Below, one piece after another: positions 32,681 to 60,218 of a stretch of 64,000 nt of DNA. Made by a program: the position numbers and the translations under genes. Under the pieces are notes generated by a model. It was not told the origin of the DNA, made no database searches, and saw nothing but the letters and a program-made list of their open reading frames with translations. Position 1 is the stretch's first letter. Each line of letters starts with the position of its first letter. This stretch comes from Scatolibacter rhodanostii. Its GTDB lineage: Bacteria; Bacillota; Clostridia; Oscillospirales; Acutalibacteraceae. Location of the stretch: assembly GCF_900197595.1 (NCBI RefSeq), contig NZ_FZLO01000001.1:434001-498000 (forward strand). The letters run 5' to 3'.

Positions 32681-33023
32681 ACGTTGTGTCATGTGATATG
32701 AGTTCGCAGAGTATCTCATGCAAATATTTTATCTGACCACCCTTTACAGGGTCGAGGCCATACGGACAGCCGGGTCAACTGCCGATTGGCGGCATATTGC
32801 TGCCATTATTGATTGAGTTAAAAGCTCAATTTTATAAGTTGGTTACTTTATAACCGATGTGCATTTGCGTGCATAACTTGTAAAACGGTCAATAAGAGTG
32901 GTAAAAGTAAGTATTTGCTATATAGACTCTCATCAAAACTCATTTCTCTATAACTCTATCTACTTCTGAAATTTGGGAAGTTGACAGGATGACAACTACA
33001 AAATGAGTATTCTGAAACCTTTT

Positions 33024-45757: not shown

Positions 45758-45832
45758 AAAAACCTCCTGCGGTTTGTGTGGTATCACGTCATGCAAATAG
45801 AAAATAAAATGTGGCCTATTTACAAATTTTAG

Positions 45833-45861
45833 TTGACACTCGAAATTGTTTATGATAGTAT
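45833..45861 (+). promoter_or_regulatory. Promoter of the first Cys-leader operon
   Basis: TTGACA (45833-45838), 17-nt spacer, TAGTAT (45856-45861). Start expected near 45868, about 45 nt before the leader ORF. Confidence 0.8.
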
Positions 45862-45911
45862 TCATATTATAACGATAGATTTAATATGAATCAATAGGGA
45901 GAGCGATATTT

Positions 45912-46040
45912 ATGAAGAATTTTCTAAATATGTGTATGGCTAATTGTAACGCATCGGTTTCATGTCCGATGTGTATTTTTGCATGTCTAGAAATCTGTAC
46001 TCCGCCCCCTGATGATTATTGTGAATTTTATTGTCTGTGA
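45912..46040 (+). CDS. Cys-rich 42-aa leader peptide (putative cysteine attenuator)
   Basis: ATG at 45912 with AGGGAGAG about 10 nt upstream; 42 codons then TGA. The peptide has eight Cys (positions 8, 12, 18, 21, 25, 29, 37, 41), all TGT, plus four Met. Sequence blocks: MKNFLNMCMANCNASVSC, PMCIFACLEICTPPP, DDYCEFYCL. No signal peptide and no maturation genes nearby. It is followed 20 nt later by a 21-bp intrinsic terminator and then the transporter operon. The coding region contains an internal hairpin CGCATCGG (45940-45947) / CCGATGTG (45956-45963). This arrangement is that of an amino-acid-biosynthesis attenuator, with Cys as the sensed amino acid (inference). Confidence 0.75.
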   Translation: MKNFLNMCMANCNASVSCPMCIFACLEICTPPPDDYCEFYCL

Positions 46041-46059
46041 AGTTGTGACGCATATTATG

Positions 46060-46111
46060 CAAGCAAAAAGCAGTCCGTAAGATTTACGGACTGCTTTTTG
46101 CTTGTTTTTTT
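46060..46111 (+). terminator. Intrinsic terminator after the Cys-rich leader (attenuator)
   Basis: Perfect 21-bp stem: left arm 46060-46080 (CAAGCAAAAAGCAGTCCG...), 3-nt loop, right arm 46084-46104, then seven T (46105-46111). The structural genes begin 13 nt later. TTTTTGC in the leader ORF (45966-45972) could pair with GCAAAAA of the left arm (46063-46069), the only antiterminator-like pairing I can see. Confidence 0.88.
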
Positions 46112-46123
46112 AGGAGGTATAAT

Positions 46124-46831
46124 TTGGAATTATGGTTATGGTTTGATCTTGGATATACGCTTGTTCATACGCAGCGAGAAAACTTATTTCAAGAAGTGCT
46201 GCACGAATTTCAAATCCAGCGTAGTCTACAAGATGTTAAAAAAAGCTTTTACCTAAGCGACAAATATTTTTTTCGAATGTGTCCGGGTGTGCTTTCTCAT
46301 CCAACAGAAAAAGATATGCTGAAATATTTTCGATGTCTATGCTCATTTTTGGAGATAGAAAATGATATAAGAATTTGGCAAGCATTTTCTTCTTTATCCA
46401 CAAAACAAACAAGAAAATGGTTTGCTTTTCAAGACACAGTTCCCGTTTTAAAAGAATTACAAAAAGACTATCATCTTGGCATCATTTCAAATTGGGATGC
46501 TTCTGCACGAGATGTGCTGAAGCAAAACGAACTTACCAAATATTTTGATGAAATTCTCATTTCATCCGAGGTCGGTGTTGAAAAACCAAATAGAAAGATT
46601 TTTGAGTTAGCACAGCAGCAATCAGGTGCACAATCAAACGCATGTTTATACATCGGGGATAACTATTATGATGATTATAGAGGCAGTACAAAACTTGGTT
46701 GGCAGTGTATTTTGTTAGATTCATTTCAAGGTGAGGGAATTTCAGAAGTACGAGATGCTACTATTTTAGGTTCATTGACAGAATTATTAAACTATTTATT
46801 AAAAAATAATCTTCCTACTGAAAGAGGTTAA
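46124..46831 (+). CDS. HAD-superfamily hydrolase
   Basis: 235 aa. Motif I FDLGYTLV (nucleophile Asp), motif II LGIISNWD, motif III Lys in GVEKPNRKIF, motif IV YIGDNYYDDYRGS. TTG start with AGGAGG six bases away, directly after the terminator. Only 4 nt separate it from the binding-protein gene, so it is the first structural gene of the attenuated operon. Phosphatase or dehalogenase-like; substrate unknown. Confidence 0.9.
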   Translation: MELWLWFDLGYTLVHTQRENLFQEVLHEFQIQRSLQDVKKSFYLSDKYFFRMCPGVLSHPTEKDMLKYFRCLCSFLEIENDIRIWQAFSSLSTKQTRKWFAFQDTVPVLKELQKDYHLGIISNWDASARDVLKQNELTKYFDEILISSEVGVEKPNRKIFELAQQQSGAQSNACLYIGDNYYDDYRGSTKLGWQCILLDSFQGEGISEVRDATILGSLTELLNYLLKNNLPTERG

Positions 46832-46835
46832 TACC

Positions 46836-48392
46836 ATGAAAAAATTATCTTTTATTCTAGTTTTTGCCACTCTATTTACCCTTGTTTTAACAGCTTGCTC
46901 GCCATCAGCTCAAGAATCGAAAGCCTCAACGCCTGAAAGTGAGAAACCGTCTTCTCAAGCGGAGACGGTATCGTCCGACACAACTACCGAAGAAGTAAAA
47001 GAGCTAAGATGGGGCTCTACAACAGAGCCAGTTACACTTGACCCACTGAATGCAGGGAATTCAGCAGATGGCAGAAGTATCTTATTCAACGTTTTTGAAG
47101 GACTTGTCAAACCTGACACAGACGGAAATCTACAGCCCGCTTTAGCAGAAAGTTATCAGGTGGAAGAAGGTGGACTCAAATATACTTTTCCGATTCGCAC
47201 TGGTGTCAAATTTCATAATGGAGCTACCTTAACAGCAGAAGACGTTGTCTATTCGTTGGAGATAGCGAAAGAGCAGGGTTTCACCGGACTAGATCAGATT
47301 GATACGATTATCGCAGATGGCAATACAGTTGTGATTACTTTAACTGCGCCAGATACTTATTTTTTACCATTTCTAACGGTGGGAGTCGTGCCAAAAGACT
47401 ATACCGACCGAGAGAATAAGCCGATTGGCACAGGACCCTTTTCGCTTGAAAGCTATACCCCTCAACAAAACATTGTACTCGTTAAAAATAAGGACTATTG
47501 GAATACCGAGCTTCCAAAGCTTGACAAGGTGACAATTCAATTTGTCAGCGATACAAACGCTCTTTTGACAGCGGTTCAAGGCGGAAATATTGATGGAGCC
47601 AGTATTATTGACTATTCACAGTTGCAACAGCTTGATGCCAATGAATATTCCTATATTGAAAGCCAGTCAGCCTCTGTGCAACTTCTTGCATTGAATAACA
47701 GCTATGGTCCGCTTGCAGATGTAAAGGTTCGTCAGGCAATCTCCTATGCTGTTGATAAAACGGAGATTATTGACACCGCTTTTTATGGCTTTGGTACACC
47801 GTCAGGCACACCGATTATTCCGGGTCTGAAAACCTATTTTAACAGTGAAGTGACCGATGCTTATCAAGCTGATATTGACAAAGCCAAACAATTGCTGACT
47901 GAAGCCGGCTATGGTGATGGATTTGATTTGGAAATTACGGTTTCTTCTAACTATACCATGCACCTTGATACCGCACAGGTCATCATCAATCAGCTCGCAA
48001 AAATTGGTGTCAATGCAACTATAGCGCAGGTCGATTGGGCAACTTGGCTAGAGCAGGTTTATTCAGGTCGTCAGTATCAGTCTACCATTATATCTATCGA
48101 CGGAAACCTCGCTCCTTCCAGTTTTCTCAGCAGATATCGCTCAGATGCTAAGAATAACTTCATCAACTTCAGCAATGCAGAGTTCGACACACAATTTGAT
48201 ATCGGTTCCGCCACATTAGAAGAAAGCGAAAGAATTGAAGCCTATAACAAGGCGCAACAGATTTTGTCTGACAACGCAGCCAGCGTATACATTCAAGATA
48301 TCAACAGCTTTAACGTATTGCGCAAGGACTTTTCAGGAGCGGTTGATTATCCACTTTATGTGTTCGATTTCTCCACCATTACAAAGAATTAG
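46836..48392 (+). CDS. Peptide/glutathione/nickel-type ABC transporter substrate-binding lipoprotein (SBP_bac_5)
   Basis: 518 aa. Lipoprotein signal LSFILVFATLFTLVLTAC with lipid Cys, then the family-5 binding fold: LRWGSTTEPVTLDPLNAG, LFNVFEGLVKPDTDGNLQPA, FHNGATLTAEDVVYSLE, DVKVRQAISYAVDKTEII, AKQLLTEAGYGDGFDL. Family members bind oligopeptides, dipeptides, glutathione, nickel chelates or opines. The Cys-rich leader upstream suggests a sulfur-containing ligand such as a Cys peptide or glutathione (inference). Confidence 0.92.
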   Translation: MKKLSFILVFATLFTLVLTACSPSAQESKASTPESEKPSSQAETVSSDTTTEEVKELRWGSTTEPVTLDPLNAGNSADGRSILFNVFEGLVKPDTDGNLQPALAESYQVEEGGLKYTFPIRTGVKFHNGATLTAEDVVYSLEIAKEQGFTGLDQIDTIIADGNTVVITLTAPDTYFLPFLTVGVVPKDYTDRENKPIGTGPFSLESYTPQQNIVLVKNKDYWNTELPKLDKVTIQFVSDTNALLTAVQGGNIDGASIIDYSQLQQLDANEYSYIESQSASVQLLALNNSYGPLADVKVRQAISYAVDKTEIIDTAFYGFGTPSGTPIIPGLKTYFNSEVTDAYQADIDKAKQLLTEAGYGDGFDLEITVSSNYTMHLDTAQVIINQLAKIGVNATIAQVDWATWLEQVYSGRQYQSTIISIDGNLAPSSFLSRYRSDAKNNFINFSNAEFDTQFDIGSATLEESERIEAYNKAQQILSDNAASVYIQDINSFNVLRKDFSGAVDYPLYVFDFSTITKN

Positions 48393-48402
48393 GTAACCAA
48401 AA

Positions 48403-49344
48403 ATGAAAGCAATTTTAAAGAGAATAGGAATTACTGTTTTAACCCTTCTTCTTGTTTCTTTGCTTGCTTTTACCGCATTCCATATTTTGCCCGGTGACCC
48501 TGCCAGTTTGATTCTTGGCACGGAGGGTACACCGGAGCAATTGGAGGCATTGAGAGAAGAGTTGGGTGTGAATCGTCCGCTATGGCAACAATATTTTAGC
48601 TGGATTAGTGGCTTGTTTACCGGTCAACTTGGAAACTCTATCCGTTATCATACTCCTATTACAGCGTTGATAGCAGATAGGCTTCCCATCACCTTTACAT
48701 TGTCTGTGCTAGCAATTATTTTAGTCTTGATCATTTCTTTTCCACTAGCCTTACTGGCAGCCAGAAAAGAAAATGGAATCATTGATAAAGTGGTTTCAGC
48801 AGGCAATATTTTGGGGATGTCAACGCCAGATTTTTTTACAGGTATTGTTTTTATATGGCTTTTCGGACTTGTTCTTAAATGGTTTACACCGGGCAAATAT
48901 ATTGGCTATCAAGAAAATATCGGTGAATTTGTTCAATACCTAATTTTTCCTGCATTGGCAATTGCAATTCCTGCCAGTGCCATGGTCACTCATTTTCTGC
49001 GTTCCTCGCTCATACAAGAGCTACAAGCAGACTATGTACGCACCGCTTACAGCAGAGGAGCAAGTAAAGGCTGGGTTTTAACACGGCATGCACTGAAAAA
49101 CGCCATGCTTCCGGCTGTTACCATGCTCGGAATTATCGTGGGTTCTGTTTTTTCAGGAAGTATCATCATTGAAAAGGTTTTTACCATTCCGGGAGTTGGG
49201 CAACTATTGATTTCTTCTATTACTTCCCGCGATTTGCCTCTTGTGCAAACTTTGGTGGTTTATATCGCAGGGATCGTAGTTATAGCCAACAGTTTGGTGG
49301 ATATTGTTATACAGATTATTGATCCACGTATTCGAATAAAGTGA
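48403..49344 (+). CDS. Peptide-type ABC transporter permease (DppB/GsiC/NikB family)
   Basis: 313 aa, six hydrophobic segments. N-terminal AFHILPGDPASLILG (the conserved pre-TM2 motif), EAA loop YVRTAYSRGASKGWVLTRHA, and C-terminal VQIIDPRIRIK ending are canonical for DppB. Starts 10 nt after the binding-protein stop. Confidence 0.95.
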   Translation: MKAILKRIGITVLTLLLVSLLAFTAFHILPGDPASLILGTEGTPEQLEALREELGVNRPLWQQYFSWISGLFTGQLGNSIRYHTPITALIADRLPITFTLSVLAIILVLIISFPLALLAARKENGIIDKVVSAGNILGMSTPDFFTGIVFIWLFGLVLKWFTPGKYIGYQENIGEFVQYLIFPALAIAIPASAMVTHFLRSSLIQELQADYVRTAYSRGASKGWVLTRHALKNAMLPAVTMLGIIVGSVFSGSIIIEKVFTIPGVGQLLISSITSRDLPLVQTLVVYIAGIVVIANSLVDIVIQIIDPRIRIK

Positions 49345-49353
49345 GGTGAGTTT

Positions 49354-50151
49354 ATGGTAAAAAAGAAAGATTTAAGAATCGGCATTATAATTGCTTCTGT
49401 CATTATTTTGCTGTCAATTATCAGTGTATTTTACTTGCCTTATGATATCAACGAAATGAATACGCAGGAGAGGTTTTTACCACCTAGCTTCACCCATTGG
49501 TTTGGTACTGATAATTTTGGAAGAGATATTTTTAGTCGCGTGATTGCAGGTGCAAAATATACCTTGTCGGTGGCATTTGCATCTGTGTTTATCGGCGTAA
49601 CTCTTGGGGCACTATTGGGACTAACAGCAGGATATTTCGGCGGCATCGTCAGCGAAATTGTTATGCGTGTTATGGATGCGCTCAATTCTTTTCCGGGAAT
49701 TCTGCTTTCACTGATGATGGTTGCTTTGCTGAAAAATGGTCAATTCACAGTTATTCTGGCACTGTCTATTCTTTTTGTACCATTTTTCACCCGTATTATC
49801 CGCAGCGGGACATTGCAGCAGAAGTCACGGGACTATGTAAAAATTGCACAGTTGCAAGGCGTGTCAAGCTTTAGAATTATTTTGGTGCACATTTTTCCTA
49901 ACTTAATTCCATCGCTGTTTTCAGCGGTCGTCATTGGATTTTCCAATGCCATTTTATCTGAAGCCAGTTTGAGCTATCTTGGTTTGGGCATACAGCCGCC
50001 TCTGCCAAGCTGGGGCAGAATGCTGTCTGAATCGCAGACATTTCTTTTGAATGCACCGTGGTGCGCCTTGGCACCAGGAATTGTCATCGTATTAACGATT
50101 GTTAGCTTTCAATTGATAGGAGGTGGATTATCACATGAAGCCTCTGCTTAA
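49354..50151 (+). CDS. Peptide-type ABC transporter permease (DppC/GsiD/NikC family)
   Basis: 265 aa. FGTDNFGRDIFSRVIAGAK is the diagnostic DppC motif, followed by five hydrophobic segments and the EAA loop YVKIAQLQGVSSFRIILVHIFPN, with SYLGLGIQPPLPSWGRML near the end. The C-terminus overlaps the next ATPase gene by 17 nt. Confidence 0.95.
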   Translation: MVKKKDLRIGIIIASVIILLSIISVFYLPYDINEMNTQERFLPPSFTHWFGTDNFGRDIFSRVIAGAKYTLSVAFASVFIGVTLGALLGLTAGYFGGIVSEIVMRVMDALNSFPGILLSLMMVALLKNGQFTVILALSILFVPFFTRIIRSGTLQQKSRDYVKIAQLQGVSSFRIILVHIFPNLIPSLFSAVVIGFSNAILSEASLSYLGLGIQPPLPSWGRMLSESQTFLLNAPWCALAPGIVIVLTIVSFQLIGGGLSHEASA

Positions 50152-51127
50152 AGCACAAAATTTGACAGTAGCTGTTCGTAAGGGAAAGAAATGGATAACG
50201 GTCGTTGACCATATTAATTTTGATATTAAACAAGGAGAAATTATTGGGATTGTCGGAGAATCGGGATGTGGTAAAACCCTCACGGCCTTATCAATTATGG
50301 GTCTTTTAGGCGCTCATGCCAAAATTGCAGAGGGAGAATTATTGTTTAAAACCGTTGATTTACAAGCAATTAGCCGCCAAGAAAAACAAAGACTGATGGG
50401 TTATGAAATTGCTATGGTTTTTCAAGAGCCAATGACAGCATTAAATCCCTTGATGAAAATCGGTGAACAATTAGCAGAACCGCTTCGACTACACGGCATA
50501 ACAGATCGCAAAATGATTCATGATAAAGTAATAGAGATTCTGCATGAAGTGGAATTATCGGAACCGGAAAGGCTTATGCAGGCCTATCCGCACCAGCTAT
50601 CTGGTGGTATGCGTCAGAGGGTGATGATTGCGGCAGCAGTAATATGCCGTCCTAAGCTTTTAATTGCCGATGAAGCCACGACTGCCTTAGACGTGACAGT
50701 GCAAGCACAAATCTTGCAGCTACTGAAAAAACTAAATCAAACCATGGGTTTGTCAATTTTGTTCATCTCCCACGATCTAGGTGTAATTCGCGCAATATGC
50801 GACAAGGTTATGGTCATGTACGCCGGAAAGATAGTGGAACAGGGAAGTGTCGGCAACATTTTTTATCACCCTCTGCACGAATACACAAAGGGTTTGTTTG
50901 GTGCGATTGCTGTTCCGGAAAAGAAAGGTCTTCCACTATCGAATATTCCGGGAAAAGTGCCGGCAGTTGGAGAAAAGCGATTAGGGTGTCCTTTTGCTCT
51001 TCGTTGCCCAAAGGTTCAGGATATTTGCCTGTCTGCGTTTCCTTCTGAAATTGCATTGGGTGAAAATCATAGTGTGAACTGTGCTTTAGTAGAGGCAGAC
51101 CGTGAGGTGGAATATGTCCAAATATGA
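50135..51127 (+). CDS. Peptide-type ABC transporter ATP-binding protein (DppD family)
   Basis: 330 aa from the ATG at 50135 (AGGAGGTGG upstream). Walker A GESGCGKTL, Q loop MVFQEPMTALNP, LSGGMRQR signature, Walker B LLIADEATTALDV, H loop ISHDL. The C-terminal region carries the oligopeptide-transporter Cys motif GCPFALRCPKVQDIC, which binds an Fe-S cluster in some members (family knowledge). Overlaps the next ATPase gene by 14 nt. Confidence 0.95.
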   Translation: MKPLLKAQNLTVAVRKGKKWITVVDHINFDIKQGEIIGIVGESGCGKTLTALSIMGLLGAHAKIAEGELLFKTVDLQAISRQEKQRLMGYEIAMVFQEPMTALNPLMKIGEQLAEPLRLHGITDRKMIHDKVIEILHEVELSEPERLMQAYPHQLSGGMRQRVMIAAAVICRPKLLIADEATTALDVTVQAQILQLLKKLNQTMGLSILFISHDLGVIRAICDKVMVMYAGKIVEQGSVGNIFYHPLHEYTKGLFGAIAVPEKKGLPLSNIPGKVPAVGEKRLGCPFALRCPKVQDICLSAFPSEIALGENHSVNCALVEADREVEYVQI

Positions 51128-51875
51128 AACGGTATTAGAGGTAAAACAGGTATCAAATAGTTATAAAGGCAAGCTTGAAAAGAAGGTTTTAAAAGATATA
51201 AATTTTAAGATTCACAAGGGAGAAATCTTTGGGTTAGTGGGCGAAAGTGGAAGTGGAAAATCCACCTTAGCGAATGCTGTTTTAGGTATTATCGACTATA
51301 ACGGAGAAATATTGATTGGCGGTAAAAACAGAAAAGATTATAATAGACGAGAGTTGTCAAAGCAAGTGCAAGCCGTATTTCAAGACCCGACGGCTTCTTT
51401 GAATCCTGCAAAAAAGGTGGGCTGGCTTTTAGAAGAACCGCTGCGTGTTCATAAAAGAGGAAGCGTATCGGAACGAATTCGCCGTGTGGATGAAATGCTG
51501 GAGCTGATTGGGTTAGATACAACTTATAAAAAAAGAAGAATAAATGAACTCAGCGGTGGACAAAAGCAAAGAATCTGCATCGGTATTGCCCTTATGCTAG
51601 AACCAGATTTGCTCATTGCTGATGAGGCGACCAGCGCATTGGATGTGTCGGTGGGTGCACAAATCTTAAATCTTTTCAAAGAACTTAATGAAAGACTGAA
51701 TACTTCGATGCTTTTTATTTCACATAATCTCAATGTGGTTTATTGGCTCTGCGACCGAATAGCAGTCATGTCTTCTGGAGAGATTGTGGAATGCGGAGAG
51801 GCGCAGAACATCTACTATTCTCCCGAACATGAATATACGCAAGCACTGCTAAGTTCCATACCAAAACTTTCGTAG
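51114..51875 (+). CDS. Peptide-type ABC transporter ATP-binding protein (DppF family, short form)
   Basis: 253 aa. Walker A GESGSGKST, VFQDPTASLNPAKKVGWLLEEPL, LSGGQKQRI, LLIADEATSALDV, ISHNL. It lacks the C-terminal oligopeptide Cys motif of typical ~320-aa DppF, as in GsiA/NikE-like short forms. Start chosen at 51114 for GAGGTGG upstream. Second ATPase of the heterodimer with DppD. Confidence 0.93.
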   Translation: MSKYETVLEVKQVSNSYKGKLEKKVLKDINFKIHKGEIFGLVGESGSGKSTLANAVLGIIDYNGEILIGGKNRKDYNRRELSKQVQAVFQDPTASLNPAKKVGWLLEEPLRVHKRGSVSERIRRVDEMLELIGLDTTYKKRRINELSGGQKQRICIGIALMLEPDLLIADEATSALDVSVGAQILNLFKELNERLNTSMLFISHNLNVVYWLCDRIAVMSSGEIVECGEAQNIYYSPEHEYTQALLSSIPKLS

Positions 51876-51901
51876 TTATCACAGCACAAGGAGGAAACGG
51901 C

Positions 51902-52756
51902 ATGTCATTTTACAAAACAGAAAAACTAGAAAAAGATTTGTATAAAATTGTTGATATACTGTCAGAAGAACTATTTCCGATTCAAGTGTTTCTTGTGATA
52001 GGCAAAGAGAGGGCAGCCTTGATAGATACAGGTATCGGAATTGGCAGCATTAAAGAAGAAGTGGAAAAAATCACACAACTGCCAATTATCGTATTGCATA
52101 CTCACGGACACTTGGACCATGTGGGAGGGGATAGGTGGTTTTCAGAACTCTATCTGCATCCACAAGAATATGTTTATTCGCAAGAGGAGGCCACTGAGCT
52201 GACACCGGTTAAACAAGAAATCCTGCTAAGGCTAACAAATGATGCTGCTTTGCTTGATGCAGCCGCCAATAAAATACAGCCTAATCCAAATCTACGCTAT
52301 CTTTCGGTGAAGGAAGGAGACCACTTTGATTTAGGTGGTGTAATTTTAAAGACAGTTGAAATATCAGGGCATACGAAAGGGTCAATTGCTTTTGTGTCAC
52401 AAGACGGACGCTTTGCTTTTACCGGAGACGGTATTGCAGATATTCATTGGTTTGACGAAGATGATGAATTCAACACAATAGAAGCTTTCTTAGAAACCCT
52501 AAATCATTTTGAGAAGTTTGCAAAAAATAACAAGCAAATTTATGCTTCCCATTTAAAAAATCCCTTTACCCCAGAACTAGTACACCAGCTTCAAACTGCA
52601 GCAAATAATATTTTGAATGGTTCAATAGATGACATCGAAAAAGCAGACTATCTTTTTTTAAAACACGGATACTTATATGCCCATAGGGTGGGAAATGCAT
52701 GTATCTACTACAAGAAAGAGAACATTTATAAAAAGCAGGGTAGTAAGTGGAAATAG
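51902..52756 (+). CDS. MBL-fold metallo-hydrolase (glyoxalase II-like)
   Basis: 284 aa. Zn-binding motif HGHLDH (68-73), a later His in EISGHTKGSIAF and Asp in TGDGIADIHW, then ASHLKNPFTPEL. AAGGAGG precedes the ATG and the gene lies 26 nt after DppF, so it probably belongs to the same operon. It could hydrolyse a thioester or a sulfur-containing import product, given the leader; that is speculation. Confidence 0.88.
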   Translation: MSFYKTEKLEKDLYKIVDILSEELFPIQVFLVIGKERAALIDTGIGIGSIKEEVEKITQLPIIVLHTHGHLDHVGGDRWFSELYLHPQEYVYSQEEATELTPVKQEILLRLTNDAALLDAAANKIQPNPNLRYLSVKEGDHFDLGGVILKTVEISGHTKGSIAFVSQDGRFAFTGDGIADIHWFDEDDEFNTIEAFLETLNHFEKFAKNNKQIYASHLKNPFTPELVHQLQTAANNILNGSIDDIEKADYLFLKHGYLYAHRVGNACIYYKKENIYKKQGSKWK

Positions 52757-52799
52757 CCAATAAAATATTTTGTGAATTTGCGTGTTCAGGGGAGAAAAA

Positions 52800-53228
52800 A
52801 TGAAGATATCTACAAAAGGAAGATACGCATTAGCTTCCGCTATTATAATGGCGAGGCATTATGACGGCCAAAAATATATAACGCTAACGAGTATAGCAGA
52901 TGAACTCGGGTTGTCTAAAATTTATATGGAGCATGTTTTTTCTCTTTTAAGAAGAGAAAATGTGGTTTTAGCGGTCAAAGGGGCAGGGGGAGGCTATCGC
53001 TTAGCGTATCCTCCTTCTCAATTAACCGTGTTTGAGATTCTTTTTGCAGCAGAAAACAGCATGTTTGGTCCCACAGAAGAAACTGTTTCTCAAACAGCAG
53101 GAAATATTGAAAGCGTTATGCAAAAATATGTTTTTGATTATCTTGATGATAACATTCATTCGATATTGCGACAAATCACTTTAGAAAACCTACTAAGCCA
53201 AGCAGATAAAAAAGAGGAATCTTTTTAA
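52800..53228 (+). CDS. Rrf2-family transcriptional regulator (CymR-like)
   Basis: 142 aa. Winged-HTH MKISTKGRYALASAIIMA, ITLTSIADELGLSKIYMEHV, LRRENVVLAVKGAGGGYRLA. There is no Cys in the protein, so it cannot be an Fe-S IscR/NsrR sensor. This fits the CymR branch, which in Bacillus works with CysK to repress cysteine genes (family knowledge). Start at 52800 with GGGGAGA upstream. Position between two Cys-leader operons supports a sulfur role (inference). Confidence 0.88.
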   Translation: MKISTKGRYALASAIIMARHYDGQKYITLTSIADELGLSKIYMEHVFSLLRRENVVLAVKGAGGGYRLAYPPSQLTVFEILFAAENSMFGPTEETVSQTAGNIESVMQKYVFDYLDDNIHSILRQITLENLLSQADKKEESF

Positions 53229-53425
53229 TGCCACCATGCCCCATAAAATTTATTTTCAATTTTAAGCAGTAAAAGTAATATTGTTTTTGTTGCTTTTTAT
53301 AGTAATTTTAAAGATAAAACATACTAAACATATAAGGCATGCTTATAAAAAAGGGAGAAGTATACTACATTAAGAATTCATATTTCAGAATATATCCCAA
53401 AGTATTTTTTTCGCCTTAAATTGAA

Positions 53426-53454
53426 TTGACATTTTAAAATTCAAATCATATAAT
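53426..53454 (+). promoter_or_regulatory. Promoter of the second Cys-leader operon
   Basis: TTGACA (53426-53431), 17-nt spacer, TATAAT (53449-53454): perfect consensus. Start expected near 53461. An AT-rich inverted repeat ATATTTCAGAATAT lies about 30 nt upstream of the -35 and may be a CymR-type site. Confidence 0.88.
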
Positions 53455-53497
53455 AACCGTAAGATTAATATGATTAAGTATAGAAAGGAGAACAACA

Positions 53498-53596
53498 ATG
53501 AGAAACAATATCAACGCAAATAAAATAATGATGGCGATGGGCAACTGTTGTATGCTCTGTTGTTCTATACCCAAATTTAATATTCAAAGCGGATGA
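53498..53596 (+). CDS. Cys/Met-rich 32-aa leader peptide (putative cysteine attenuator)
   Basis: ATG at 53498 with AGAAAGGAG seven bases upstream; 32 codons then TGA. MRNNINANKIMMAMGNCC, MLCC, SIPKFNIQSG. Four Cys codons cluster as TGT TGT ATG CTC TGT TGT (53546-53563), and four further Met codons follow the start. A T-rich intrinsic terminator begins 19 nt after the stop, and the mccB gene follows. Too short for usual gene calls. The reading as a ribosome-mediated attenuator for sulfur amino acids is inference, strengthened by the parallel leader at 45912. Confidence 0.75.
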   Translation: MRNNINANKIMMAMGNCCMLCCSIPKFNIQSG

Positions 53597-53614
53597 ACAT
53601 ATCTTTTACATGCT

Positions 53615-53659
53615 AAAAAGCAGTTGGGAGATGATTATCCCGACTGCTTTTTTATTTTA
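53615..53659 (+). terminator. Intrinsic terminator after the second Cys-rich leader (attenuator)
   Basis: 15-bp stem AAAAAGCAGTTGGGA (53615-53629) / TCCCGACTGCTTTTT (53638-53652) with one G-U pair, 8-nt loop, T-rich tail. CCCAA (53570-53574) can pair with TTGGG of the left arm (53624-53628), and CTTTT (53603-53607) with AAAAG (53616-53620); both would compete with the terminator. Confidence 0.85.
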
Positions 53660-53751
53660 TCACAACAATTTTGAACTAACTTTTTCCGCGCTTTATTCCT
53701 TTGTGAGTAAGAAACAAAAATAATTCTAAGATATAGCAAGGGGTTTTATAG

Positions 53752-54909
53752 ATGAAACATTATCAAAAGATAGAATCTTCTCTAATTCATGGTGGGATTT
53801 ATGGCGATGAGCGCACAGGCGCTGTTAACATTCCCATTTATCAAACTTCGACTTATCAGCAAGACGGTTTGGGTAAAATGCGGGGGTATGAATATTCTCG
53901 CACAGGAAACCCAACAAGAGAATCTCTGGAATCTCTCATAGCAGAGCTTGAAAAGGGAGAAGCTGGATTTGCTTTTGCTTCTGGAATGGCGGCAATTACA
54001 GCCGTACTAACTTTACTGAAAACAGGTGATAGGGTTGTGATTTCCAGTAATGTGTATGGTGGAACCTTCCGGGTATTGGATAAAATATTCCAATCATTTG
54101 GTATCAATTATACCATTGCCGATACGAGCAATTTAGAGGAACTAAGTCACGCGCTTACAGCAGATGTAAAAATGCTTTTAATCGAGAGTCCTGCCAATCC
54201 ACTGTTAACGGTTACTGATATTGAAGCAGTTTCATTTTTGACAAGAGAAAAAAATATTTTGCTGGTGGTAGATAATACCTTTATGACTCCCTATCTTCAG
54301 CGCCCATTAGAATTGGGAGCAGACATTGTTCTACATTCAGCCACCAAATATTTAGGTGGACACAGCGATTTAATTGCTGGATTGGTGATTGTTAAAACAC
54401 AGAAACTGGCAGAAAAGTTGCATTTCATTCAAAATGCCACAGGTGGAATTTTGCAGCCATTTGATTCATTCCTTTTAATCCGCAGCATTAAGTCACTAGG
54501 CGTTCGAATGCAAAGGCATGTGGAGAATGCAGAGATTATAGCCGATTGGCTAAATAAAAATGAGGCTGTTGCTTCCGTGTACTACCCTGGTTTACCAACT
54601 GCCCAAGGATATGAAATCAATAGAAAGCAAGCCAAAAATGCAGGAGCAATGATTTCTTTTGAGTTAACAGCTGAGTATGATATCAAAAAATTCTTTGAAA
54701 AGCTAAAATTAGTGGCACTAGCTGAAAGTCTTGGGGGAGTAGAATCGCTGGTTTGTCATCCTTCTTCTATGACACATGCTTCTATTCCCAAAGAAATTCG
54801 AGAACGAGTGGGCATCACCGAGAATTTAATTCGACTCTCAGTGGGTATTGAACATATTGACGACTTAATTCATGATTTACATTCAGCGATTGAGGGGTCA
54901 AAAAAATGA
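53752..54909 (+). CDS. mccB: Cystathionine gamma-lyase/synthase-type trans-sulfuration enzyme
   Basis: 385 aa Cys/Met-metabolism PLP enzyme. IPIYQTSTYQQDGLG, YEYSRTGNPTRESLE, ASGMAAI, VDNTFMTPYLQRPLELGAD, LHSATKYLGGHSDLIAG (PLP Lys), SLGGVESLVCHPSSMTHA. The coupling to a cystathionine-synthase-like gene by a 4-nt overlap points to the reverse trans-sulfuration pair MccA/MccB (homocysteine to cysteine). Cystathionine gamma-synthase activity is the alternative. Confidence 0.9.
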   Translation: MKHYQKIESSLIHGGIYGDERTGAVNIPIYQTSTYQQDGLGKMRGYEYSRTGNPTRESLESLIAELEKGEAGFAFASGMAAITAVLTLLKTGDRVVISSNVYGGTFRVLDKIFQSFGINYTIADTSNLEELSHALTADVKMLLIESPANPLLTVTDIEAVSFLTREKNILLVVDNTFMTPYLQRPLELGADIVLHSATKYLGGHSDLIAGLVIVKTQKLAEKLHFIQNATGGILQPFDSFLLIRSIKSLGVRMQRHVENAEIIADWLNKNEAVASVYYPGLPTAQGYEINRKQAKNAGAMISFELTAEYDIKKFFEKLKLVALAESLGGVESLVCHPSSMTHASIPKEIRERVGITENLIRLSVGIEHIDDLIHDLHSAIEGSKK

Positions 54910-55814
54910 GTTTATACGCTTCTATGCAAGATTTGGTCGGTAATACTCCCATGGTGACTCTGTCACATTGCGGATTTTCAAGTCAGTTGAAAGTCTATGC
55001 AAAGTTAGAATTCTATAATCCTGCCGGAAGTGTAAAAGATAGAATCGGTCAATACATGATTGCCGATGCAGAAAAAAAGGGATTGCTTAAACCAGGCAGC
55101 ACAATTATTGAAGCTACCGCAGGAAACACAGGTCTTGGTATTGCCTTTGCAGCTCTTAACAAAGGATATCAGTTGCTTTTCGTTGTGCCTACAAAATTTT
55201 CTCAAGAAAAGCAAACGCTGATGAAAGCTTTGGGAGCTGAAATTATAAATACACCTTTGGAAGAAGGTATGCTAGGGGCGGCTAAGAAAGCTGAGGCACT
55301 AAGAAACGAAAATCCAAATTCGATAACGTTGGAGCAATTTAAGAATGCCAGCAACCCCCTGGCACATTACGAAACAACAGGCCCTGAGATTTATGACGAT
55401 TTAAATGGTAACATTGATTTTGTTGTGGCAGGCGCAGGCAGTGGAGGAACTTTTTCAGGAATCATGCAATATTTAAAAGAAAAAAATCCTGCCATAAAAG
55501 GTGTGTTAGCTGATCCGGTAGGTTCCACCATGGGTGGCGGTGAGCACGCAAACTACGACATCGAAGGAATAGGAAATGATTTCATTGCTGAAACCATGGA
55601 TATGAATCTGGTTGATCGTGTAATTAAAGTGAATGATGCACAGGCATATGAAGAAGTTCGCTTGTTGGCGAAAAAGGAGGGGATCATTGCTGGTTTATCT
55701 TCAGGGGCAGCCTTAGCAGCAGTGCGAATTCTGCAGAAAGATGCAGTTGGAAATATCGTTGTTGTTTTTGCAGATAGAGGCGAGCGATATTTCAGCAAGA
55801 ATATTTTTGGATGA
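54906..55814 (+). CDS. mccA: Cysteine synthase / cystathionine beta-synthase-type PLP enzyme
   Basis: 302 aa. LVGNTPMVTLSHC, YNPAGSVKDRIGQYMI (PLP Lys), EATAGNTGLGIAFAA, VAGAGSGGTFSGIMQYLKE, GLSSGAALAA. Type-II fold without a C-terminal CBS domain. In Bacillus the MccA homologue makes cystathionine from O-acetylserine and homocysteine. Plain CysK activity cannot be ruled out. ATG overlaps the mccB stop (ATGA). Confidence 0.9.
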   Translation: MSLYASMQDLVGNTPMVTLSHCGFSSQLKVYAKLEFYNPAGSVKDRIGQYMIADAEKKGLLKPGSTIIEATAGNTGLGIAFAALNKGYQLLFVVPTKFSQEKQTLMKALGAEIINTPLEEGMLGAAKKAEALRNENPNSITLEQFKNASNPLAHYETTGPEIYDDLNGNIDFVVAGAGSGGTFSGIMQYLKEKNPAIKGVLADPVGSTMGGGEHANYDIEGIGNDFIAETMDMNLVDRVIKVNDAQAYEEVRLLAKKEGIIAGLSSGAALAAVRILQKDAVGNIVVVFADRGERYFSKNIFG

Positions 55815-55992
55815 ACAAGAACACTCTGACAAAGGAGATGAACAAAATTAGATGTCTATCAATTCCTAAACCAATGAGACAGATAAAATGAAAAAAGTGC
55901 TGCTCGGATTTGGTCTTTTGGATAGTGCTAGGCTAGTAAGTCCTTTTAAGTACTAAACTTAAAATAAAAGAACAATAAGAAAGGGTTTGAAC

Positions 55993-57327
55993 ATGGAACG
56001 AAAAGAATATACAGCAGCTAAAAATTATACCCTGTTTTCTTTTACAGGTGTGCCGCAAAAAGAATATAGACCGATATATATTGAAAAAGCAGACAACATT
56101 TATGTATGGGACGAAAACGGAAAAGAATACATTGACCTTGGCTCACAATTAGTTAATGTCAACATCGGCTTTGGCAATCAAAATATTATCAAAGCTATTC
56201 AACACCAAGTGGAAACCCTTGCCTACGTTGCCCCAAAGCACTCCTATGAACAACGTGGAGAATTGGGTGAGATTCTAATTGAAGAAATCGCTCCGAAAAA
56301 TATGCAGAAAGCATTTTTCACATTGGGCGGCTCAGATGCCAATGAGTTTGCCATCCGTATTGCCAAGACTGTCACTGGACGTGACAAAATATTTTCGAAG
56401 TATGAGTCTTATCACGGTGCAACCTATGGAGCAGGAAGCTTGACCGGAGAACCTGACAGAGCTTCTCTTTTTCCAACTATACCAGGATTTATAAAATATC
56501 AGGCGCCCCATCTCTATCATTATGATATTGAGTTTGCCACAGAAGAAGAAGCGACAGCGCATTTTCTCAAAAGGCTTCAATATCAGTTCGAGATGGAGGG
56601 TCCAGATAAAATAGCCGCTTTTTTTATAGAGTCTGTGACAGGAAGTAATGGAGTGTATTTATACCCCAAAGGCTACCTAAAAGGGGTTAGAGAGTTGTGC
56701 ACCAAATACGGAATTTTGATGGTTTGCGACGAGGTTATGTCAGGATTTCTCCGTTGCGGAGAATGGTTTGCGTGCCAAAAAGAAGGCATAGAACCTGACA
56801 TCATCACTTTTGCCAAAGGTGTGAACAGCAGTTATGCGCCGCTTGGCGGGGTGCTCATCAGCAAAGAAATTTCAGAGTACTTTGACAACAATCCTTTTGC
56901 AACAGGCTTAACCTATAATGCGCATCCACTTGGTGTAGCCGCTGCTATTGCTTGTATCAGGGAGTACCAGCGTTTAGATATTAAGACACACGTCAATCAG
57001 CTTGCACCTATCTTGACAGAACAATTAAACTGGTTGAAAGAGAAACATATCTCAATCGGTGATGTACGCTCTACCGGCTTATTTGGTGCAATTGAGTTTT
57101 CACAAAACCGTGAAACACATGCCAAAATCAGCACAGACAAAGAAGGCCGGCCTTTCTTGCAGCAAATGCTGTTGGTCTTGAGAGAATATGGCTTGCTCAC
57201 ATTTGGGCAAGGTTCTACAATTCTGTTTGCACCTCCACTAATTACAACAGAAGAGCAGTTGAACGAAATTATAACAAGGCTTGACAAAGCAATTGAATAT
57301 GTCGATGACATTGTAAATTCAATCTAA
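55993..57327 (+). CDS. Class-III aminotransferase (aspartate/omega-aminotransferase family)
   Basis: 444 aa. YVWDENGKEYIDLGSQLVNV (the SQLVNVNIGF block recalls taurine:pyruvate-type enzymes), YESYHGATYGAGSLTG, MVCDEVMSGFLRCGEWFA, IITFAKGVNSSYAPLGGVLI (PLP Lys), FATGLTYNAHPLGVAAA. Start at 55993 with GAAAGGG upstream. It sits inside a run of sulfur amino-acid genes, so a sulfur-containing amine or amino acid is a plausible amino donor (inference). The gap to mccA is 178 nt, enough for a separate promoter, although I see no clear one. Confidence 0.85.
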   Translation: MERKEYTAAKNYTLFSFTGVPQKEYRPIYIEKADNIYVWDENGKEYIDLGSQLVNVNIGFGNQNIIKAIQHQVETLAYVAPKHSYEQRGELGEILIEEIAPKNMQKAFFTLGGSDANEFAIRIAKTVTGRDKIFSKYESYHGATYGAGSLTGEPDRASLFPTIPGFIKYQAPHLYHYDIEFATEEEATAHFLKRLQYQFEMEGPDKIAAFFIESVTGSNGVYLYPKGYLKGVRELCTKYGILMVCDEVMSGFLRCGEWFACQKEGIEPDIITFAKGVNSSYAPLGGVLISKEISEYFDNNPFATGLTYNAHPLGVAAAIACIREYQRLDIKTHVNQLAPILTEQLNWLKEKHISIGDVRSTGLFGAIEFSQNRETHAKISTDKEGRPFLQQMLLVLREYGLLTFGQGSTILFAPPLITTEEQLNEIITRLDKAIEYVDDIVNSI

Positions 57328-57365
57328 ATAGTAAATAAATTAAGAGAAAGAATAGGTGATTTGAA

Positions 57366-57923
57366 ATGGCAAGAGTAAATTTAGTGCAATATGAAGAGAC
57401 AGAGGGAAAAATTAAAGAGGCGTTTGACGCTCAAATTGCAAAAAGCGGAAGTGTAACTAACATGAAGAAAGCACTTCTCAACGACATTGATGTTTATGAT
57501 TCGTACCTAACTTGGTATCCGCTCTATAGCAGAGTAAACGAAATCGTTGGTAACCGTGCAGCGGTCATCTTTGCCCATGCAATTTCCACAACAAACAACT
57601 GCCTGCTTTGCTCTTTATTTTTCATCAGTGATTTAAAAGCATTGGGTGAAGACCCAAATTCTTTTGAACTCAATGAAAAAGAAGAACTGCTTTCACAACT
57701 TGGACAGCAGATTGTAAAAGATCCTTCTAATGTCAGCGATGAACTTTTTGTAAGATTAAAAGAAAACTTCACAGATCAAGAAATTGTCGTTTTGGTTGGG
57801 TTTGCCGGTCAAATGATTGCCACCAATAATTTTAATTCAGTTTTAAAAGTGGATGTAGACCAACGTTTAGTGCCAATCATCGAAGATTTTAAGCCTGCCA
57901 CATGGCGTGAAAATTTGCAATAA
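57366..57923 (+). CDS. AhpD-like carboxymuconolactone decarboxylase-fold protein
   Basis: 185 aa. The CxxC pair is Cys79-Cys82 in ISTTNNCLLCSLFFI. In AhpD and peroxidase-related members a His follows the second Cys by three residues; here it is replaced by Phe, so the proton-relay site is incomplete. Probable thiol-disulfide or peroxide-related role. Between the aminotransferase (38 nt) and metY (12 nt), hence co-transcribed. Confidence 0.82.
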   Translation: MARVNLVQYEETEGKIKEAFDAQIAKSGSVTNMKKALLNDIDVYDSYLTWYPLYSRVNEIVGNRAAVIFAHAISTTNNCLLCSLFFISDLKALGEDPNSFELNEKEELLSQLGQQIVKDPSNVSDELFVRLKENFTDQEIVVLVGFAGQMIATNNFNSVLKVDVDQRLVPIIEDFKPATWRENLQ

Positions 57924-57935
57924 GAGGTGAGATAA

Positions 57936-59243
57936 ATGGCAGAGCCAACTTATCATTTTGATACACTGAAAATTCATGCAGGATATAATCCGGCAGACCA
58001 CAATTATGCAGTGTCTGTTCCAATCTATCAAACGGCTGCCTATGAACTAGGTAGTGTTGCCCGTTCAGATGATTTGTTTTCTTTCAATTCAGAAGATTCT
58101 GTATATACAAGACTATCTAACCCTACCATTACCATTTTAGAAAAACGCATTGCAGAGCTGCATGGAGCTACAGGTGCGATTGCATTAGCTTCAGGTATGG
58201 CAGCAGTCTCTTATGCACTTTTAAACGTGGTGGGGGGGAGTGGACGAATTTTAACCACGCCGCGCCTTTATGGTGGTACGATAGACAGTTTTGGGCAGGT
58301 ATATAAAGAATTCGGTATTGAGGTTGATTTGGTAGAAGATTCAGACAGTGTAGATTCTTTTGAAAAAGCCATTCGAGCTGATACAAAAGCAATTTTTGTG
58401 GAAAGCATAACGAATCCTAATGCTACTGTGACTGACTTGGAGCCAGTTGCAGATCTTGCCCATAAATATAACATTCCGCTGCTTGTGGATAACACAGTAG
58501 CCACACCCTACTTACTGAATCCATTTGATTATGGGGCAGATATTATTGTGTACTCGGCCACGAAAGCATTGACAGGTCATGGCAATGCCATTGCAGGCTT
58601 AGTAGTCGAAAACAATCAATTCAACTGGGCCAATGGGAAATTCCCTCAGTTTGAAGAAAAGCTCTATTCGCTGCGAGATATTGATGATAGACAGCGTTCT
58701 GTGCTAGAGGTTTTTTCAAAGATTCCATTTACGGGCAGAATCCGTGCACTTTATTTAAATTATTTAGGTGCAGCTCTGTCTCCTTTTAATGCGTATTTAG
58801 TGCTGATTGGTCTAGAAACACTTTCTGAAAGAATAGAAAAGCAAGTTTCTAACTCTAAAAAAGTAATTCGCTTTTTAGAAAATCGAAGAGAAGTGCTTTG
58901 GATAAAACATCCTGAAGCAAAAGAGAACCCGTATCGTGATTTAGCAAAGAAATATCTACCCAAAGGTAGTGGTGGCATTTTTTCGTTTGGACTTTCTGGA
59001 ACAGCAGAACAGCGAAGAAATTTTATAGAAGGCGTAAAAGTTTTTAGCTATCAGGCAAATATAGGAGATGCCCGTTCGCTGATTATCAATCCGTCCCGAA
59101 CCACTCACACTGAACTAGATGAAGAACAGCAAAGATTAGCTGATATCGTTCCTGAAACGATTCGTCTCTCTATTGGGTTAGAAAACGCAGAAGATTTAAT
59201 TGCTGATTTAGATCAGGCATTTGAGCTTGCTTTTCAAAAATGA
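57936..59243 (+). CDS. metY: O-acetylhomoserine sulfhydrylase (aminocarboxypropyltransferase)
   Basis: 435 aa, the long form typical of MetY. FDTLKIHAGYNPADHNYAVS, VPIYQTAAYELGS, YTRLSNPTITILEKRIAELH, ASGMAAVSYALLNV, VDNTVATPYLLNPFDYGAD, VYSATKALTGHGNAIAGLVV (PLP Lys), SLIINPSRTTHTEL. Makes homocysteine from O-acetylhomoserine and sulfide. Together with the mcc pair it would interconvert sulfide, homocysteine and cysteine. Last gene of the second Cys-leader operon. Confidence 0.93.
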   Translation: MAEPTYHFDTLKIHAGYNPADHNYAVSVPIYQTAAYELGSVARSDDLFSFNSEDSVYTRLSNPTITILEKRIAELHGATGAIALASGMAAVSYALLNVVGGSGRILTTPRLYGGTIDSFGQVYKEFGIEVDLVEDSDSVDSFEKAIRADTKAIFVESITNPNATVTDLEPVADLAHKYNIPLLVDNTVATPYLLNPFDYGADIIVYSATKALTGHGNAIAGLVVENNQFNWANGKFPQFEEKLYSLRDIDDRQRSVLEVFSKIPFTGRIRALYLNYLGAALSPFNAYLVLIGLETLSERIEKQVSNSKKVIRFLENRREVLWIKHPEAKENPYRDLAKKYLPKGSGGIFSFGLSGTAEQRRNFIEGVKVFSYQANIGDARSLIINPSRTTHTELDEEQQRLADIVPETIRLSIGLENAEDLIADLDQAFELAFQK

Positions 59244-59443
59244 AATAGTGACATCGTTATAGATTTTTTGGTAAGGCTAAGCATAATTAGCCAATAAAAA
59301 AGTAGGATTTTCATGTGTGCTTTTTGCTCATGAATTTTCTGCTTTTTCATTTTTTATTTGTCTTTGTGGATAAAAATCACTTCTTACCAAGTAGATAAAT
59401 ATGTGTTTCGATATTCTTTTGCTACACAAAGGCGACAATATCT

Positions 59444-59451
59444 GCTATAAT
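59444..59451 (+). promoter_or_regulatory. Extended -10 promoter of the LytTR two-component operon
   Basis: TGC TATAAT (TG at 59443-59444, -10 at 59446-59451). No good -35 at 17 nt. About 50 nt upstream of the response-regulator start. Confidence 0.5.
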
Positions 59452-59504
59452 AATAGCGTGTTTTTAAATAGATTCCCTATAATTCAGTAGAATTGGAGCA
59501 AGGC

Positions 59505-60218
59505 ATGTACCGAGTTGTTTTATGTGAGGATGAAGAAATATTTTTACAGGCCCAAGAAAAAACTTGTAGAAATATTCTTGAAAAACTAAATATAGACTAT
59601 CAAATTGCTATATTCTCTAGTAGCACTGATTTTCTTCATGCCTTTTTTGACCAAGGCATGAGATATGATTTATTGTTACTCGATATAATAATGGATGATG
59701 TAAATGGTATAACTCTTGCCAAAGAGATACGAAAGAAAGATACCTCAGCTGCCATTATTTTTATTACGTCAAGCAGCGAGTACGCTCTACAAGGATATGA
59801 CGTTAAGGCTCTTCATTATCTAATGAAACCTTTAAATGAAGATATCCTTACCCAGATAATAGAAGAAGATTACAATAACCGGTTCAAAATGGATTATTTA
59901 GTGTTGGAATCAGATTTAGGAAAAATGAGAGTAGCCTTAAAAGAGATTGTCTGCGCTGAAACAATTGGACGAAGAGTGAAAATTACACTTATGCAGAATC
60001 AGACTGCTTATTTCTATGGCACACTAACTGATTTTTTAACCGAGCTGCCTCATGATATATTTATACGCTGTCACCAGTCATATGCTGTCAATATTTCAAA
60101 TATTCGCGAGCTTACCCGACAAGATGCCATTACTTTTAACGAACAGCAGATACCGGTCAGCCGCACATTTTTTAAACAAGTAAAACAAGCATTTTTACAG
60201 AAGATGCGAGAACAATAA
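59505..60218 (+). CDS. LytTR-family response regulator
   Basis: 237 aa. Receiver domain: MYRVVLCEDEE (acidic pocket), phospho-acceptor Asp60 in LLLLDIIMDD, FITSSSEYALQGYDVKALHYLMKP (Thr and Lys). LytTR DNA-binding domain from about residue 140: VCAETIGRRVKITL, YFYGTLTDFLTELP, FIRCHQSYAVNISNI. Start at 59505 with GGAG upstream rather than the in-frame TTG at 59493. Pairs with the next gene as an AgrA/AgrC-like system. Confidence 0.93.
   Translation: MYRVVLCEDEEIFLQAQEKTCRNILEKLNIDYQIAIFSSSTDFLHAFFDQGMRYDLLLLDIIMDDVNGITLAKEIRKKDTSAAIIFITSSSEYALQGYDVKALHYLMKPLNEDILTQIIEEDYNNRFKMDYLVLESDLGKMRVALKEIVCAETIGRRVKITLMQNQTAYFYGTLTDFLTELPHDIFIRCHQSYAVNISNIRELTRQDAITFNEQQIPVSRTFFKQVKQAFLQKMREQ

Follow-up and report, generated by a model that had tools for sequence, protein, structure and literature searches.

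A predicted cysteine-codon leader switch upstream of mccB-mccA in Scatolibacter rhodanostii, with similar leaders before mccB runs in many Clostridia

Organization of the locus

In the window (the whole 64,000-nucleotide stretch of Scatolibacter rhodanostii DNA that was analysed), we found that an Rrf2-family regulator gene, a short leader with a promoter and a terminator, and the genes mccB and mccA follow one another on the forward strand, and that another Cys-rich leader lies further upstream. The features are as follows.

45912-46040, forward strand: the other Cys-rich leader (leader 1), 8 Cys in 42 amino acids, followed by a HAD gene and a run of SBP_bac_5 ABC-transporter genes
46059-46105, forward strand: terminator of leader 1, at least 20 pairs
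52782-53228, forward strand: Rrf2-family regulator gene, upstream of the leader; its matches to the CymR and IscR equivalog models score under the model cut-offs
53426-53454, forward strand: sigma-70-type promoter TTGACA-17-TATAAT, matching at 12 of 12 positions
53465-53477, forward strand: operator-like box TTAATATGATTAA between the -10 element and the leader, with a similar box at 45881-45893
53484-53490, forward strand: Shine-Dalgarno sequence AAAGGAG of the leader, 7 nt before the ATG at 53498, read from the sequence
53498-53596, forward strand: leader peptide ORF, 32 codons plus stop, peptide MRNNINANKIMMAMGNCCMLCCSIPKFNIQSG
53546-53563, forward strand: TGT TGT ATG CTC TGT TGT, a stall site proposed from the sequence and from the Cys clusters of relatives
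53602-53631, forward strand: proposed antiterminator hairpin (TCTTTTA/TGCT paired to AGCA/TGGGAGA), part of the best fold computed for fragments lacking the terminator right arm
53615-53652, forward strand: intrinsic terminator hairpin of 15 pairs followed by a T-rich tract
53752-54909, forward strand: mccB (PF01053; best NCBIfam match cystathionine gamma-lyase/homocysteine desulfhydrase at 557.6 bits, under the cut-off of 594)
54906-55814, forward strand: mccA, a cysK-type PALP enzyme gene that overlaps mccB by 4 bases

The product of mccB is an MccB-type PLP enzyme of Cys/Met metabolism, and the next gene encodes a PALP enzyme of the MccA/CysK type. By homology the two enzymes would convert homocysteine to cysteine; their exact substrates are presumed, because the best NCBIfam names score below the curated cut-offs. 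The promoter is as perfect as the original prediction had described it, ranks at the top of the 53 promoter-like sites listed for 45000-60000, and has TTGACA and TATAAT at the aligned position in both orthologous leaders considered below.

The leader that had been predicted downstream of this promoter (AAAGGAG, then 32 codons with four clustered Cys codons and several Met) is present as described: its Cys codons lie at 53546-53551 and 53558-53563, it has four Met besides the start, and it ends at the stop codon 53594-53596. When we searched both strands of the window for Shine-Dalgarno-started ORFs of 10-70 amino acids with at least four Cys, a CC pair among them, and a nearby terminator, it was the sole ORF found; similar leaders occur in loci L206 (4637) and L205. 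The predicted 15-bp terminator is likewise borne out, and the segment 53606-53655 folds with -22.9 kcal/mol (z -7.5), a value as good as which was reached in 0 of 200 shuffles. Three features of a leader-peptide attenuator are found here in the sequence: between promoter and operon there is a short ORF with a ribosome site, which we presume to be translated, its clustered codons are those for the amino acid of the operon and are kept in relatives, and an intrinsic terminator separates the leader ORF from the first gene.

The best fold before the terminator right arm exists pairs TCTTTTA (53602-53608) with TGGGAGA (53625-53631) and TGCT with AGCA, and the fragments that contain this antiterminator have energies of -8.7 and -11.4 kcal/mol. 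CCCAA at 53570 and CTTTT at 53603 had each been put forward as a candidate antiterminator; both are at these positions, and CTTTT takes part in the best computed fold, whereas a CCCAA:TTGGG antiterminator is absent from it. The antiterminator of the window can form, but its duplex is not in excess of shuffles for the window sequence alone (p about 0.2), and the duplex test on the window group (the window and two orthologues) gave p values of 0.206, 0.689 and 0.571. The three-sequence alignment of this group, which holds too few sequences for covariation, has no two-sided change in the antiterminator, and an apparent compensatory change between the window and L205 turned out to be a register shift, the alignment being without such a change.

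Leader 1 at 45912, with which the original prediction had compared this leader, exists and differs from it in sequence, so that only the design is common to both. Behind leader 1, the HAD gene and the SBP_bac_5-type transporter run are followed by a metallo-hydrolase gene and then by the Rrf2 gene. As a guess, the transporter could carry a peptide or conjugate that contains cysteine. For its solute-binding protein, two relatives of 41% identity were found among 148 genomes, and neither has a Cys-cluster leader in the flank examined.

We also compared the leaders with catalogued RNAs. At gathering score, no Rfam family (SAM/S-box included) lies over the window leader and no T-box (RF00230) matches in the window; elsewhere T-boxes are common, with 11 matches in the window's genome and at least one match in 94 of the 98 genomes searched, its own included. 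At the same score, no family lies on the leaders in 79 of the 80 named mccB loci surveyed below (the best 80 of at least 582 matches, with L066 excluded) or on the leaders of L013, L205 and L206. Loci L080 and L095 have a T-box 0.9-1.2 kb upstream of mccB. A match to SpF59 (ldcC RNA, RF02440; 69.6 bits) is present in the window at 32734-32785.

Survey of related mccB loci

Similarity searches with the DNA of the 326-base leader region returned, besides itself, only short matches (26-37 bases, in 4 of the 148 genomes), which we read and judged to be chance. Because plain DNA similarity does not recover the leader, mccB orthologues were collected, and a rule (Shine-Dalgarno sequence, 10-70 codons, at least four Cys including CC, terminator near) was applied to whole loci of 4-7 kb. 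Among the named mccB loci, which are the best 80 of at least 582 matches, a Cys-cluster leader with terminator is present on the sense strand in 36, as compared to 1 on the antisense strand and 0, 1 and 1 in three dinucleotide shuffles; the same rule written for each of the other 19 amino acids finds at most 11 of these 80 (by Leu and Ser). The remaining 44 of the best 80, in which the operon start is not always in view, gave no leader by the rule. Examples are the leaders of Ruminococcus bromii (L031, ..NNCCCIACC..) and R. flavefaciens (L043, ..MCCCCCM..), and a leader of the form MKCMCCCM..IRC recurs in several Clostridiales. Some leader-bearing records are named otherwise, for example as Fibrobacter or Spirochaetes MAGs, assignments that are putative.

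In the window's own family, MccB was found at E up to 1e-115 in 28 of the 398 genomes searched and is at least 63% identical in 22 of these 28; a Cys leader lies upstream, by eye or by rule, in 18 of the 22. The terminator rule is satisfied in 10 of the 18 leaders, and a hairpin is visible in the sequence of several others. In the other four genomes (G163, G296, G357 and, at a contig edge, G430) there is no leader in the stretch read. The match between leader codons and pathway that had been noted for the window is therefore one that many relatives share with different sequences (36 of the best 80 of at least 582 named loci; 18 of 22 family genomes). The leader is not a property of all cysteine genes, since 0 of the 24 upstream flanks examined at cysK-like loci of relatives contain a Cys leader and terminator. 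Leaders precede mccB-mccA, or an LCM-methyltransferase gene, alone or together with metK or luxS, that is followed by mccB; some precede mccB-mccA followed by an ABC ATPase gene, which is MetN-type in L073. A tree of 107 MccB proteins built with FastTree requires no fewer than 21 changes of leader label, as compared to a shuffled mean of 34.4 (the label 'none' includes loci with the operon start out of view), and hence leaders follow lineages but have been gained or lost several times.

From these loci we assembled 65 leaders: 41 (rule hits and L013, found by eye), 22 (21 picked by eye and leader 1), and those of L205 and L206. Left out were L006 (the window), L007 (the same leader as L148; G090 is absent), L105 (an uncertain long ORF) and the antisense match in L067. 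Two pairs are identical (L039 and L146, L101 and L124), leaving 63 distinct peptides. A terminator follows 53 of the 65 by rule, of which that of L136 is doubtful, falling inside the next listed ORF; the 12 of 65 leaders without one were excluded from the pairing tests. Leader 1 went into this count, and into the folding and duplex tests, with its start shifted to 45913, and its rows in them are invalid.

RNA pairing across leader groups

We sorted the leaders into groups by eye and measured the duplex that the sequence following the Cys codons makes with the left arm of the terminator. In 15 leader groups, taken as group medians and without the window group and leader 1, this duplex is stronger than in shuffles (p 6e-6). 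In several groups the terminator right arm is copied shortly behind the Cys codons, where the copy can pair with the left arm; such copies are ACAGGCGG, CCGGGC and GTATTCTGC in three unrelated groups. A count of upstream pairing in minimum-free-energy folds (44 of 53) was dropped as evidence after a shuffle control, and the paired fraction of the left arm with a ribosome placed at the Cys codons, 0.665, is hardly above the 0.597 (sd 0.029) of shuffles.

Covariance analysis in related Clostridia had been suggested as a check of the window leader. In the Ruminococcus group, where covariation was computed for 7 of 11 members (L055 was omitted, and L033, L058 and L059 were out of register in the first alignment), the antiterminator is paired in 90.9% of the cells of the alignment. 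Two of its pairs, and likewise two pairs of the terminator, differ on both sides, and one such pair falls in the same left-arm column in both structures. The antiterminator values were reached by 9 (cells paired), 45 (pairs changed), 9 (cells changed) and 7 (covariation score) of 500 shuffles; the number of pair types was reached by 489 of 500, and 76.6% of cells remain paired when the partner is moved by two columns. A separate group of ten leaders keeps its pairing in 97.8% of cells, as compared to at most 44.4% when slid, with no two-sided changes. Two-sided changes are thus seen in the Ruminococcus group and are absent from the group of ten and the window group. The duplex test supports antiterminator pairing for the class of leaders, and covariation supports it for the Ruminococcus group.

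The same tests bear on a reading in which stalling at the Cys codons is right but the signal takes another route, be it the stalled ribosome itself, Rho and coupling, or control of mccB translation. The window antiterminator, being no stronger than chance, would fit this, as would the cysteine leaders of mycobacteria, which are described as lacking a conserved terminator (PMC1262725) and termed translation attenuation (PMC13236596). The strong intrinsic terminator here, its recurrence by rule behind 53 of 65 collected leaders, and the significant pairing at the class level speak against it, and we regard such a route as unlikely.

Orthologous leaders and the Rrf2 neighbour

The closest MccB orthologues, with 76% identity, are in G365 and G228. 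In G228 the leader MANRKSFAAMNCTLMGMQSSCILCCAMCQYDTLSG and its terminator stand directly before a MetN-type (NIL-domain) ATPase gene, which is followed on the same strand by genes for a permease, an NlpA lipoprotein, an M20 peptidase, LuxS and an ABC ATPase, one unassigned gene, a second NlpA lipoprotein gene and then mccB, about 7 kb downstream. The G365 leader is MANRKSTAAATNCTLMGMQSFCIPCCAMCQYDTPSG, and the ORF sizes are similar to those of the G228 run. This longer gene run rules out a simple metN-I-Q-mccB operon in the closest orthologues. Window, G228 and G365 have in common the promoter, the clustered Cys codons and a GCAGTYGGGA/TCCCGRCTGC terminator core, and in all three a predicted competing hairpin sets in one to five bases behind the stop codon. 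Loss of the Cys codons with the terminator kept, which the original prediction had named as grounds for refutation, was looked for and not seen in the two orthologous leaders, each of which carries five Cys codons. A 51%-identical Rrf2 relative occupies the same place, just upstream of the leader, in both genomes. From the shared module and Rrf2 neighbour in front of different first genes, it seems that the module travels with the Rrf2 gene and serves different first genes.

The position of this gene, directly upstream of the leader in the window, G228 and G365, raises the alternative that the adjacent Rrf2/CymR-like protein regulates at the promoter and that leader and terminator are incidental. 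The similar box after both -10 elements of the window's leaders would agree with this: TTAATATGAWTMA behind both leader promoters is a candidate Rrf2 operator, and the boxes at 53465-53477 and 45881-45893 are the only matches in the window with 0 or 1 mismatch to a pattern that was drawn from these two sites. Nevertheless, Cys enrichment in the leaders is far above shuffles, a Cys leader with terminator occurs among 24 family Rrf2 loci only in the window, G228 and G365, and both controls can coexist. We consider it very unlikely that the leader is incidental. A stretch resembling TTAATATGAWTMA also occurs on the reverse strand of L024, where it precedes a cystathionine-synthase-like paralogue in the genome of the window.

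Methionine codons and other leader types

To the Cys clusters the leaders add Met: it makes up 6.8% of leader residues as compared to 2.5% in a control set of 1,622 other Shine-Dalgarno-started small ORFs with fewer than three Cys, taken from both strands of these loci and including genes. Three or more internal Met are found in 28 of the 63 distinct leaders, and the window leader has four; both figures would suit leaders that read the sulfur amino acids Cys and Met jointly and not Cys alone. However, internal Met is absent from 12 of the 63, and induction by Met shortage would be odd, because mccB-mccA use methionine-derived homocysteine, except where a methionine-type transporter follows. 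We consider joint reading rather unlikely.

The codon pair CGA-TGT/TGC is present in 26 of 63 distinct leaders (e.g. L073 2810, L046 1880 and L062 2634) and is separated from the stop by at most four codons in 22. Of the Arg codons that precede a Cys codon, 26 of 32 are CGA, as compared to 48 of 1,135 Arg codons in mccB genes. All 26 leaders belong to three groups (12, 11 and 3), so the pair represents few independent events, and the window leader is without it. We can only guess at its role: it might be a slow codon near the stop or act in the RNA, for instance as a pause signal for polymerase. Another leader type, in which Met and Cys are both abundant, ends CGA ATG TGA; in L069 it precedes a gene for a Cys-rich lipoprotein-like product and then, by eye, a sulfonate-type binding-protein-like gene. 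These leaders may belong to a large uncatalogued clostridial attenuator class that senses sulfur amino acids through two codon stations, an opening Cys(/Met) cluster and a CGA-Cys timing pair. At the second station a rare Arg codon beside a hungry codon near the leader end would hold the ribosome and so time terminator formation, with CGA-Cys in three leader groups and CGA-Met in the other leader type. We offer this two-station scheme tentatively and think it improbable as it stands.

In L069, the small lipoprotein-like gene (6270-6506) encodes the Cys pairs DCCKE, DCCKN and DCCAG. On the reverse strand of L018 (G048:C15), a Met-containing leader MVNRTDNMMAMRASESMWNGNTPNCHALI with a terminator lies before another Cys/Met PLP gene, and this is a possible methionine leader.

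Cys-rich small peptides exist, and a Cys-rich lipoprotein-like gene stands behind one related leader, which could suggest that the product of the small ORF is itself functional, as a metal-binding or modified Cys-rich peptide, with no leader role. Against this, the peptides of different groups look unrelated outside the Cys cluster, and the RNA pairing regions of several groups fall on the codons that follow the cluster. A peptide function of this kind is, to us, hardly credible.

Discussion

We conclude that the leader of the window is very probably a ribosome-mediated transcription attenuator that reads charged Cys-tRNA, and that it probably turns mccB-mccA on only when cysteine is scarce. 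RNA polymerase would start behind the promoter at 53426-53454, and a ribosome would begin the 32-codon leader. With enough cysteine, the ribosome would reach the stop codon at 53594-53596 and cover the beginning of the antiterminator that follows it closely; the 15-pair terminator would form and transcription would end near 53655. When cysteine is short, the ribosome would stall at the four Cys codons at 53546-53563. The ribosome footprint extends about 13 bases from the A site, and with the first Cys codon in the A site the RNA from about 53559 onward would be free. The antiterminator at 53602-53631 may then form first and occupy the left arm of the terminator, and polymerase would continue into mccB-mccA. 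We infer leader translation, stalling, read-through and the particular antiterminator of the window; the sequence parts, the Cys clusters, the link of the leaders with mccB runs across the class and the pairing at the class level are observations.

Comparable principles have been described in other bacteria. In Actinobacteria and mycobacteria, short ORFs with Cys runs precede cysteine genes and have no conserved terminator (PMC1262725, Seliverstov 2005), and mycobacterial polycysteine attenuators are presented as translation attenuation, cited to Canestrari 2020 (PMC13236596). These leaders are alike in having runs of Cys codons before cysteine genes and in being read as cysteine-responsive. 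In contrast, the mycobacterial ones are described as leaderless and without a conserved terminator, whereas here, mostly in Clostridia, a Shine-Dalgarno-led ORF is followed by a strong intrinsic terminator; with both of these present, the window leader falls outside the definition of the mycobacterial leaderless small ORFs. The uORFC-8-2 motif before cysS in Rhodobacterales, for which ribosome-mediated attenuation is predicted (PMC8632094), resembles the leaders described here in its Cys codons in tandem, its stems and a U run like that of a terminator, but it is one conserved motif of alphaproteobacteria before a cysteinyl-tRNA synthetase gene, whereas many unrelated leaders stand before mccB runs here. 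The window leader, whose gene is mccB, lies outside that definition too.

A functional parallel is the known T-box control of the reverse transsulfuration (methionine-to-cysteine) operon in Clostridium: a cysteine T-box precedes ubiG-mccBA-luxS in Clostridium perfringens and its relatives (PMC2940859). Pathway, operon type, cysteine signal and premature termination agree with those here; in that system tRNA is read directly and without a translated leader. Leader peptides with codons for the regulated amino acid are also described for other amino acids and in other organisms, namely the His leader that replaces T-boxes before hisS/hisZ in bacilli (PMC2965389) and LeuL, TrpL and MetL of Campylobacter jejuni (PMC3847290). 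Searching by title and abstract, we found no report of cysteine-codon leaders in Clostridia in the literature searched, which lacked most subscription journals. The principle is known, and the clostridial class of Cys leaders appears to be a new, widespread variant of it.

A translated Cys-codon leader, instead of a T-box, appears to be used in many Clostridia, strains of Ruminococcus bromii and R. flavefaciens among them, although T-boxes occur elsewhere in the genomes of the window's relatives. Their many differently built solutions to one switch form a natural set in gut and rumen bacteria and, speculatively, may bear on how cysteine supply sets the sulfur metabolism of these bacteria.
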